From contig JAJYTC010000021.1 in assembly GCA_021793275.1 (NCBI GenBank), forward strand, positions 1-40,131: a stretch of DNA of 40,131 bases. The letters run 5' to 3'. Every line of letters starts with the position of its first letter. The stretch's first letter is position 1. The position numbers and the translations under genes are program-made. The DNA is from Deltaproteobacteria bacterium (lineage in GTDB: Bacteria; Desulfobacterota; Syntrophobacteria; Syntrophobacterales; Syntrophobacteraceae). This document shows positions 31,910 through 35,388 of this stretch, piece after piece. The notes under the pieces were generated by a model. It made no database searches, was not told the DNA's origin, and saw only the letters and a list, made by a program, of their open reading frames with translations.

Positions 31910-32509
31910 TCAAAAATCCACGCCGGGCTGTGGCTCTATGTCTTTGCGATAAGCGTGGACGATCTCCTGCACCTCGCTTGCGGTATCCGCCAGTGCAATG
32001 ATCTCCGGGGCCGCGTCGCGGCCTGTAAGAATGAGATGCAGAAGGCGGGGCTTGCCGCGGATGAGCTCTACCGCCTGTTCGAGGTCCACCAGTTTTAAAT
32101 GGATGGCGTTATTGATCTCATCGAGAACTATGAGATCATATCCGTTTGAGCCGATTCGCTCTTTTGCCAGCCCAAGGGCCCGTTGGGCGGCCTCCCTGTG
32201 GCTGGCGCGCGGGTAGGGGTTGCCCTGTATTCCGCAAAACCCCATGCCTGTAGCGACTATCTCCACGTCGCAGTCCAATTTCTTTACACCCTCCCATTCG
32301 CCCGTGAAGATATCGCCCTTCATGAACTGAATAACGCAGACCTTCATCCCGTGCCCGCAGGCGCGTAGCACCATGCCCATGGCAGAAGAAGTTTTGCCTT
32401 TTCCGTACCCGGTGAGCACAACAACAAGGCCGATCCTTTTCTTGGGCGCCAGGGTGGTCATCGGAAGCTGCGGATTCAACCGCGTCATTTTCCGCTCGTC
32501 ATAAGTCAT
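31910..32509 (-). CDS. cobO: Cob(I)alamin adenosyltransferase (CobA/CobO/BtuR family)
   Basis: VVVLTGYGKGKTSSAMGMVLRACGHG, VIQFMKGD, YDLIVLDEINNAI, LILTGRDA. Confidence 0.9.
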   Translation of the reverse strand: MTYDERKMTRLNPQLPMTTLAPKKRIGLVVVLTGYGKGKTSSAMGMVLRACGHGMKVCVIQFMKGDIFTGEWEGVKKLDCDVEIVATGMGFCGIQGNPYPRASHREAAQRALGLAKERIGSNGYDLIVLDEINNAIHLKLVDLEQAVELIRGKPRLLHLILTGRDAAPEIIALADTASEVQEIVHAYRKDIEPQPGVDF

Positions 32510-32698
32510 CGCTGTTTCTCCCTTTATAAATAAAGATATGCTCGGGTAGAAAAGAAATAAACGAGCTTTCCGGCGAAAGGGCCAAGCCCGCTTCCTGTGA
32601 TCACGCCCCGGTCCCTTCAAACAGCGCGGTTGTGATTGACCGCTTCACTGAGCAGTGTTAGCATAACATGATAAGCGATAACCTATTGGAGTTCCTCC

Positions 32699-32944
32699 AT
32701 GGTTCGAACACAGATCCAGTTGACCGATGAGCAGGCATCTCCACTGAAAGAGATCGCCCATGAAAATAACGAATCCATAGCGGCAATCATCCGCAAGGCC
32801 TTGGACCAGTTCCTGATGAGACGCCGGCCAAACCGCCGCGATCTCTACCGGCAGGCCCTCGGAGCAGTCGGAAAATATACGGCCGGGGCCGGGGATATTG
32901 CAATCGAACACGATCGCTACCTCGATAAAGCACTGAGGCCATGA
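32699..32944 (+). CDS. Ribbon-helix-helix (CopG/VapB-like) antitoxin
   Basis: [43 protein letters not shown] overlap with next ORF. Confidence 0.75.
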
Positions 32945-33180
32945 CCGTGTTCGCCGATACTTCCGCGGACGAGTTCGAAGCAATTCGGCTGGCCGACCTG
33001 GAGCGGCTTTATCACGAACAGGCTGCGGAAAAAATGGGAATTTCCCGCCAGACTTTCGGAAGGATCCTCGAAGCGGCAAGGAGCAAAGTGGCGAAGGCCC
33101 TGGCCAGGGGGCTGGCCCTTCGTATCGAGGCAGACAGAGTGGATAAGGAGATCGAGCGCGAAAGTTTGTTTTCCGGCTGA
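32941..33180 (+). pseudogene. Chimeric ORF: VapC (PIN) start MTVFADTSA fused to C-terminal half of a DUF134 protein
   Basis: MTVFADTSA is a typical PIN-toxin N-terminus; [54 protein letters not shown] is DUF134 C-terminal sequence. Confidence 0.65.
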
Positions 33181-33205
33181 ATTGCTGCGGTGAAAGGATG
33201 TGGAG

Positions 33206-33925
33206 ATGAAAGAATACGTCATTTATCCTATGGTGATAGGGGCCAATGAAACCGATCAGGGGATCATGACCTATCTGCGGGGATACGGCAAACGCATCTG
33301 GATACCCATTTACGCGTTCCTGATAAAGGGGGCGAAAGAGGTTATTTTGGTTGATACCGGTCTCGAACAGTTTGTCGTGCCCGAGCATGTCGGGCGTCAA
33401 TACGGCCTGAAGATCCAGGAGTTCGAGGATGCGCTGGGCGACCACGGGCTGCGGCCGGAGGACGTGGACATTATCATTCATACACATTTGCACAACGATC
33501 ACTGCGAAAACGATCCGAAATGCACGCGGGCGAAAATAATCGTGCAAAAGGCCGAATACGACTTTTTCCTGAACCCCCATCCAATCGATCACCGCTACTA
33601 TTCGGACCTTCTGGACGGTTTGAATGTCGAACTGGTGGAGGGGGATACAAATCTGATGGATGGAATCGATCTGATTTTTTCCCCGGGCCATACTCCCGGA
33701 GGCCAGTCGGTCGCCGTCCGCACGGCGGCCGGAAGAGCAATTATCACCGGCTTTTGCTGCAACGGACTGAACTTTCCGGCAAATGCCCCGAGTGTGCCTT
33801 CCGGGGTCCACACCGATGCGATCGCAGCTTTTGATAGCGCCCGGAAAATCCGGGAGATGGCAGATATTCTGATCCCGCTGCACGAAATTTCCGTGGGAAA
33901 AGCCGGGCGAATCCCCGAGGCTTAG
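33206..33925 (+). CDS. MBL-fold metallohydrolase (N-acyl homoserine lactonase-like)
   Basis: VILVDTGLE, IIIHTHLHNDHCEND, FSPGHTPGGQS. Confidence 0.9.
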   Translation: MKEYVIYPMVIGANETDQGIMTYLRGYGKRIWIPIYAFLIKGAKEVILVDTGLEQFVVPEHVGRQYGLKIQEFEDALGDHGLRPEDVDIIIHTHLHNDHCENDPKCTRAKIIVQKAEYDFFLNPHPIDHRYYSDLLDGLNVELVEGDTNLMDGIDLIFSPGHTPGGQSVAVRTAAGRAIITGFCCNGLNFPANAPSVPSGVHTDAIAAFDSARKIREMADILIPLHEISVGKAGRIPEA

Positions 33926-34029
33926 GCGAAAGGAAACCGTGCGGCAGTACCTGGTGGAGACGGCTTGCCCTATCGCCGGGCTCACTAATGTCCATGCCGG
34001 ATAATGGCTGAGTAAGACGGAAGCGTATT

Positions 34030-35388
34030 ATGGCCAGGAAGCCCCTTGTATTGCAATCCGCTATATCGCCTCAAACTGAAATCATCTTGAACAGCATCGC
34101 AGATGGAGTTTTTACTGTAGACTCCGAATGGCGGATCACCTCTTTCAATCGCGCGGCGCAGCAGATCACAGGCGTTTCGGCTGCCGAGGCGATCGGGCGC
34201 CCCTGCTATGAAGTCTTTCGGGCCAACATCTGTGAATCCGTTTGTGCGCTTAAATCCACGATGGAGACAAAAAAGCCCGTCGTAAATCGTCCGGTTTTGA
34301 TTCTTCGCGCCGACGGCAAAGAAGTCCCGATCAGCGTCAGCAGTGCTTTGCTGCGCGATGAATCGGGCAAGGTGATCGGAGGGGTCGAGACATTCCGCGA
34401 TTTGAGCCTCGTTGAAACTTTGCGCAAGGAAATCGTCCGTCAGTATGGTTTCCAAGACATCATTTCAAAATCTCCGGCGATGAGGCGCCTTTTTTCCATT
34501 CTTCCCGAAGTGGCCCAAAGCGAGAGCACCGTGTTGATCCATGGGGAGAGCGGCACAGGAAAAGAACTGGTAAGCCGCGCCATTCACAGTCTTAGCCCCA
34601 GGTCCGCCAAGCCCTTTGTCGCCGTCAACTGCGGGGCTCTTCCCGACACTCTGCTGGAATCGGAACTCTTCGGTCATGTCGCCGGAGCATTCACCGACGC
34701 AAAGCGGACCCGCATCGGACGGTTTGCAATGGCCGAGGGGGGAACGCTTTTCCTCGATGAGATAGCGGACATATCCCCTGCCATGCAGGTGCGGCTTCTG
34801 AGGGTCCTGGAAGAGCGCACATACGAACCGCTTGGCTCTTCGAAAACGGTAAAGACCGATGTTAGGATAGTCACCGCATCGAACAGGGACCTGTCCAGGC
34901 TGGTTGATGAAGGCCTTTTCAGAAAAGATCTCTATTACCGCATCAATGTCGTAAAACTGGATCTGCCGCCTCTTTCCCGGCGCAAAGAAGACATTCCGCT
35001 TCTTGCCGCCCATTTCATCGAACGGCTGAACCGGATGAGGAACAAAGAGGTTGCCGGACTCAGCCAGGAAGTCCTGGCGATCTTCATGCGTCATGACTGG
35101 CCGGGAAACATCCGCGAGCTGGAAAATGCGATCGAATATGCTTTCATCCTGTGCCGGCAAGGGCTTATTCAACCCCAATGCCTGCCCGACTACCTCCATG
35201 GCGAACCTTGCCCGCCTGTGCACACCGGCGGCCTCACTCTGGTGGATTTCGAGCGCAACACGATTCTTAACGCCCTCGACCGCAACGGCTGGCGCCGAAT
35301 GGCCACGGCGCGCGAACTCGGCATAGATAAAAACACCCTGCGGCGCAAAATCAAAAGGCTTAACATCGTGCGCGAAGAATCCGCATGA
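34030..35388 (+). CDS. PAS-domain sigma54-dependent Fis-family transcriptional regulator
   Basis: PAS IADGVFTVDSEWRITSFNRAAQQITG; GESGTGKELVSRAIHSLSPR; GHVAGAFTDAKRTR; GGTLFLDEIADIS; C-term HTH. Confidence 0.93.
   Translation: MARKPLVLQSAISPQTEIILNSIADGVFTVDSEWRITSFNRAAQQITGVSAAEAIGRPCYEVFRANICESVCALKSTMETKKPVVNRPVLILRADGKEVPISVSSALLRDESGKVIGGVETFRDLSLVETLRKEIVRQYGFQDIISKSPAMRRLFSILPEVAQSESTVLIHGESGTGKELVSRAIHSLSPRSAKPFVAVNCGALPDTLLESELFGHVAGAFTDAKRTRIGRFAMAEGGTLFLDEIADISPAMQVRLLRVLEERTYEPLGSSKTVKTDVRIVTASNRDLSRLVDEGLFRKDLYYRINVVKLDLPPLSRRKEDIPLLAAHFIERLNRMRNKEVAGLSQEVLAIFMRHDWPGNIRELENAIEYAFILCRQGLIQPQCLPDYLHGEPCPPVHTGGLTLVDFERNTILNALDRNGWRRMATARELGIDKNTLRRKIKRLNIVREESA

Follow-up and report, generated by a model that had tools for sequence, protein, structure and literature searches.

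The window analysed here, a 40,131-nucleotide stretch of a Syntrophobacteraceae genome, carries an intact gene for a VapB-like ribbon-helix-helix (RHH) antitoxin (32699-32944, + strand) that is without a vapC partner and is followed by a chimeric open reading frame (ORF) of 79 aa (32941-33180, + strand). To the left lies cobO/btuR, which encodes a corrinoid adenosyltransferase (31910-32509, - strand; PF02572, E 7e-54) and whose longest ORF extends to 32620, with the conserved start at about 32509. To the right are genes for an MBL-fold hydrolase (33200-33925, + strand; PF00753, E 3e-14), which resembles AHL lactonases at scores below the family cut-offs (NF045699, 102 bits against 375), and for a PAS-AAA-Fis sigma54-dependent regulator (34030-35388, + strand; PF00158, E 1e-68). 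Farther 3' of the regulator, the window holds an ORP-like cluster (35781-38379) comprising a NifX-like gene (35781-36149; PF02579), two genes for MinD-like ATPases (PF01656), the first with 4Fe-4S motifs by Pfam, and a second NifX-like gene. An earlier account of this DNA, made from the letters alone (hereafter the sequence-only reading), had placed a NifX/MinD cluster about 2.6 kb downstream of the chimera, which is where the first NifX-like gene and the MinD-like ATPases were found.

The chimeric ORF begins at an ATG (32941) that overlaps the stop of the RHH gene (CCA TGA) as ATGA, and its product starts with MTVFADTSA, just as the sequence-only reading had described. The antitoxin itself scores 20.0 bits against the Pfam RHH_1 profile, just under the cut-off of 20.5, and its closest relative, with 68% aa identity, lies in genome G018 (contig C123) directly 5' of a vapC gene for a PIN protein (PF01850, E 3.4e-10). 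Together, the RHH match, this identity and the ATGA overlap give the arrangement by which VapBC modules are recognised, an RHH/AbrB antitoxin gene overlapping its toxin gene. The further claim that MTVFADTSA is the start of a PIN toxin gained support from the DNA, as the stub at 32941-32966 (+ strand), which encodes MTVFADTS and supplies the GC of Ala9, is collinear with the vapC starts of G018 and G009, with homology ending at 32966. About 94% of vapC is absent from the locus, and the nine residues left include one Asp and lack the set of catalytic acidic residues of a PIN toxin. Separate vapB-vapC pairs occur in G018, G009, G041, G017 and G059. G004 also has an orphan VapB of this type (C152, L046:1014-1277), independent of the one described here and with no vapC 3' of it, so toxin loss alone is not unusual in these relatives.

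From Ala9 onward, the reading continues to the native stop of a DUF134 gene (32967-33180, + strand; codons 37-106), retaining its helix-turn-helix (HTH), sigma region 4-like part. Specifically, residues 8-63 of the chimera match positions 36-91 of the 98 in PF02001 (Pfam; E 5.7e-15), at 56.1 bits against a gathering cut-off of 27, and residues 8-79, to the end of the protein, are 83% identical in aa sequence to the DUF134 protein of G004. Since the match starts only at profile position 36, the chimera lacks the family's N-terminal third, and with it the arm and strands of the full-length architecture. The sequence-only reading was thus right that the frame runs into DUF134 without its N-terminus, and it overstated the loss in calling the remainder half of the protein; what is missing amounts to a third, residues 1-36 out of about 106.

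Full-length DUF134 genes lie at the same locus in four congeners (G010, G009, G007 and G004). The first three share the order aroF, a tyrA-like (prephenate-dehydrogenase-like) gene, cobO (- strand), DUF134, MBL-fold gene and sigma54 regulator gene, with cobO adjoining DUF134 and the MBL-fold gene next in the DUF134 operon, while G004 carries the right half (DUF134-MBL-sigma54). The window retains this gene order exactly outside the replaced segment. In all four congeners DUF134 is adjoined by the MBL hydrolase and PAS-sigma54 regulator genes, which correspond to 33200-35388 in the window and encode proteins of 89-91% identity (89-90% aa identity for the MBL-fold protein, 89-91% for the regulator, a conserved right flank). 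Relatives carry the two contributing genes separately, as vapB-vapC pairs and as full-length DUF134 genes, and in none of them does vapBC stand beside DUF134. Farther afield, the 15 other DUF134 genes of the class and about 130 in a 297-genome sample of the phylum match the profile from near its start (at positions 2-15 in the class), the exceptions being matches at contig ends and a handful of divergent genes.

Comparison with these relatives places both ends of the replaced segment. On the right, the vapBC DNA of G018:C123 is collinear with the window across vapB and into the beginning of vapC (ATGACCGTNTTYGCCGAYACTTCCGC), with 32966 as the last collinear base, while identity with the DUF134 genes of congeners begins at base 32967 (GGACGAGTTCGAAGC), which fixes the breakpoint at 32966/32967 to the base. 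In these alignments, the homology on either side of the junction is far beyond chance. At most one base of microhomology (G) is present there, which would fit illegitimate recombination. On the left, the native region upstream of cobO is still alignable to relatives over 32510-32597; pairwise alignments to G007 and G010 stop at 32576-32597, and the upstream alignment to the G018 vapBC begins at 32592. From these weak intergenic alignments, we tentatively set the left edge at about 32592-32600. The vapB-'vapC segment, about 370 bp long (from about 32592-32600 to 32966), thus sits where relatives have the DNA upstream of DUF134 and its codons 1-36. Profile and tblastn matches that extend DUF134 back to 32851-32857 in another frame, through a stop, were considered as a hidden N-terminus and rejected as a chance extension over vapB, because that frame is vapB in another phase and the vapB reading is 68% conserved. 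A predicted sigma70-like promoter of vapB (TTGACC-17-TAGCAT; 32636-32664, + strand) falls within the segment, on a consensus scan that found three such promoters in the region against 1.4 expected.

Structure predictions, built on 6-7 sequences, give an indication of what the missing third contributes. The AlphaFold2 model of full-length DUF134 (6 sequences; pLDDT 78, pTM 0.66; moderate confidence) comprises a disordered basic arm (residues 1-10), strands at 17-19 and 31-34, helices at 36-47, 52-59 and 63-83, and a third strand at 86-89. The structures closest to it are those of sigma region 4 and of DeoR-type HTH domains, with weak E values and a TM to the target of about 0.6-0.7, and no significant sequence relative of DUF134 was found in the PDB. 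The chimera, modelled as two helices (pTM 0.50), lacks the conserved RPKCC arm at the N-terminus and two of the full-length protein's three beta strands. With these elements missing, it is probably unable to adopt the native fold or to find the palindromic site described below, which is itself gone from this genome.

Upstream of intact DUF134 genes lies a 20-bp palindrome, TTATGAGCATATGCTCATAA, set between TTGCCA/TTGAC-like and CATAAT-like hexamers and thus coinciding with the sigma70-like promoter of those genes (for example, at about L033 7912-7931, L034 7807-7826 and L044 7016-7035). Scanning 56 genomes of the class with the pattern TTATGNNCATATGNNCATAA, at one mismatch or fewer, yielded 12 sites, of which 11 immediately precede a DUF134 gene and none lies in the genome studied here. 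Phylum-wide, 18 of 29 DUF134 upstream regions carry the palindrome at 8/10 or better, against 2.3 expected from neighbouring DNA, in counts that include closely related, non-independent genomes; a similar palindrome also lies ahead of DUF134 in two records, named Saccharicenans and Omnitrophota. This co-occurrence suggests that DUF134 is probably a narrow autoregulator and that the palindrome is its candidate operator, which would be the simplest reading of a spread across phyla coupled with a near-absence of other sites. By the same comparison, the candidate operator and the N-terminal arm and strands appear to have been lost together in this genome; the sequence-only reading had not covered the loss of the promoter and predicted operator. 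G002 (C70:12750-12998, L074) has a DUF134 gene that is interrupted close to the start by an in-frame TGA yet retains the upstream palindrome, possibly a second copy in decay.

Our preferred reading, to which we assign a probability of roughly 70%, is that a rearrangement replaced the DUF134 promoter, operator and first 36 codons with a promoter, vapB and nine codons of vapC. Most likely, a full vapBC module was inserted between cobO and DUF134 and a later deletion connected codon 9 of vapC to codon 37 of DUF134, or a single replacement accomplished both steps. The intermediate, a vapBC insertion before deletion, was not found among relatives. The sequence-only reading had proposed an in-frame deletion that joined two genes; the in-frame joining stands, while a simple deletion between neighbours is not directly seen, as no relative has vapBC beside DUF134, and the alignments would equally allow some 370 bp to have been inserted, or to have replaced native DNA, between cobO and codon 37 of DUF134. 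In the ancestral state, full-length DUF134 would be an autoregulator of the DUF134-MBL operon, an HTH homodimer that represses it by binding TTATGAGCATATGCTCATAA across the spacer and -10 of the DUF134 promoter. The outcome of the rearrangement would be an orphan VapB and a 79-aa chimera translated from vapC start signals, with the vapB promoter predicted to drive vapB, the chimera and the downstream MBL gene. DUF134 autorepression would be gone and the operon would fall under VapB alone, with the chimera itself probably inert. VapB without VapC is usually a weak repressor.

One competing explanation is an artefact, in which a vapBC fragment was attached to the DUF134 locus by faulty assembly or binning, both genes being intact in the living cell. 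The contig does come from a metagenome-assembled genome (MAG) in 278 contigs (97.1% complete), and no second genome shows the fusion. Both flanks are native, however (aroF and cobO on the left, the MBL and sigma54 genes on the right), so that two wrong joins about 370 bp apart would have had to restore synteny, a requirement that makes misassembly improbable. Nor does the genome hold the leftovers that such joins should leave. A DUF134 N-terminus query gave only chance matches elsewhere in it (E 0.17) against E 1e-12 to 3e-19 in six congeners, and a vapC related to the missing partner is absent from it, whereas the same query matches strongly in five other genomes. A second copy of the junction region was considered as a source of misassembly and rejected, as the region is single copy, and no repeat occurs at the junction. 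The in-frame ATGA join would be unremarkable under either origin. With the lost DUF134 N-terminus and the remainder of vapC found nowhere in a MAG that is 97% complete, a real deletion or replacement appears likelier than an assembly chimera.

If the event is real, the chimera could still be more than debris. A truncated HTH protein might act under toxin-antitoxin control, for example in DNA binding, as a dominant-negative form or as a partner of VapB; no stop interrupts its ORF before the native one, neither the HTH core nor the C-terminal tail has been altered, and ATGA translational coupling to vapB is kept. Across the 54 codons shared with four congeners, the remnant shows dN of about 0.04-0.06 and dS of about 0.6-0.8, and the resulting dN/dS of about 0.05-0.09 is like that of intact relatives. 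We see no accelerated evolution or relaxed selection in this comparison, which suggests either that the event is recent or that the HTH is retained. One aa change and three nucleotide changes are unique to the remnant, no more than in intact relatives and in parallel with the MBL gene, and they are too few to reveal selection after the event. Given also that the conserved N-terminal arm and strands are missing and that the predicted operator is absent from the genome, we consider a functional new gene unlikely, and the chimera most likely arose recently as a by-product without function. Similarly doubtful is a regulatory swap in which the VapB unit replaced the DUF134 autoregulatory unit (operator and DNA-binding arm), so that an orphan antitoxin governs the MBL operon and the HTH fragment keeps a role. 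That vapB followed by a short HTH partner constitutes a natural family, a new type of toxin-antitoxin pair, is almost certainly wrong, as its likeness to such a pair lies in the gene overlap only. The vapB relatives are followed by a PIN vapC or by nothing (G004), the DUF134 relatives are full length, and neither the short ORF nor a vapB before a DUF134 fragment was found in any other of the 56 class and 297 phylum genomes. The possibility that relatives conserve the short ORF, which the sequence-only reading had itself raised against the fusion, is thus refuted within the sampled genomes; the ORF is private to this genome, and the sequence comparisons indicate that the fusion is a lineage-specific, one-genome accident.

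The locus offers a clean case, with its two breakpoints located, in which part of a toxin-antitoxin module has displaced a chromosomal operon's control region and assumed its place, leaving behind an orphan antitoxin. The more useful by-product is the candidate DUF134 operator, a lead worth keeping: DUF134 is widespread and appears to repress its own transcription through a palindromic site that occurs once per gene and almost nowhere else. Among the literature hits listed, we recognised no functional study of DUF134, UPF0251 or COG1342.

Set against known systems, the chimera shares with DUF134 (PF02001; UPF0251/COG1342) the HTH core, the C-terminal strand region and tail, and the operon context, and differs from it in lacking residues 1-36 (the MARPKCC arm, FKPxGxP and strands 1-2) and the upstream palindrome. 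With type II VapBC modules (RHH VapB and PIN VapC), it shares an intact VapB, the ATGA overlap, the start codons of vapC and the first PIN motif (FADTSA), whereas about 94% of vapC is missing and no toxin related to the partner exists in the genome. The sigma54 regulator and NifX/MinD genes of the window resemble the orp operons (ORP complex) of Desulfovibrio vulgaris, where a sigma54 regulator (DVU2106) likewise lies by NifX-like and MinD-like Fe-S genes (PMC3897727, PMC6345978); this likeness is one of gene content, and the excerpts of those papers mention no DUF134 or MBL gene. Finally, in Mycobacterium bovis BCG Moreau, the RD16 deletion near vapBC47 inactivates a transcriptional repressor and alters the expression of the adjacent operon, in a system where VapB recognises a palindromic site at the promoter of its own gene (PMC10453824). 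By analogy, the documented polar effect of RD16 provides a precedent for the rewiring of expression through inactivation of an adjacent repressor, although there the VapBC pair is intact and itself affected, whereas in this genome vapC has been destroyed, leaving its first codons joined to the disrupted regulator gene.
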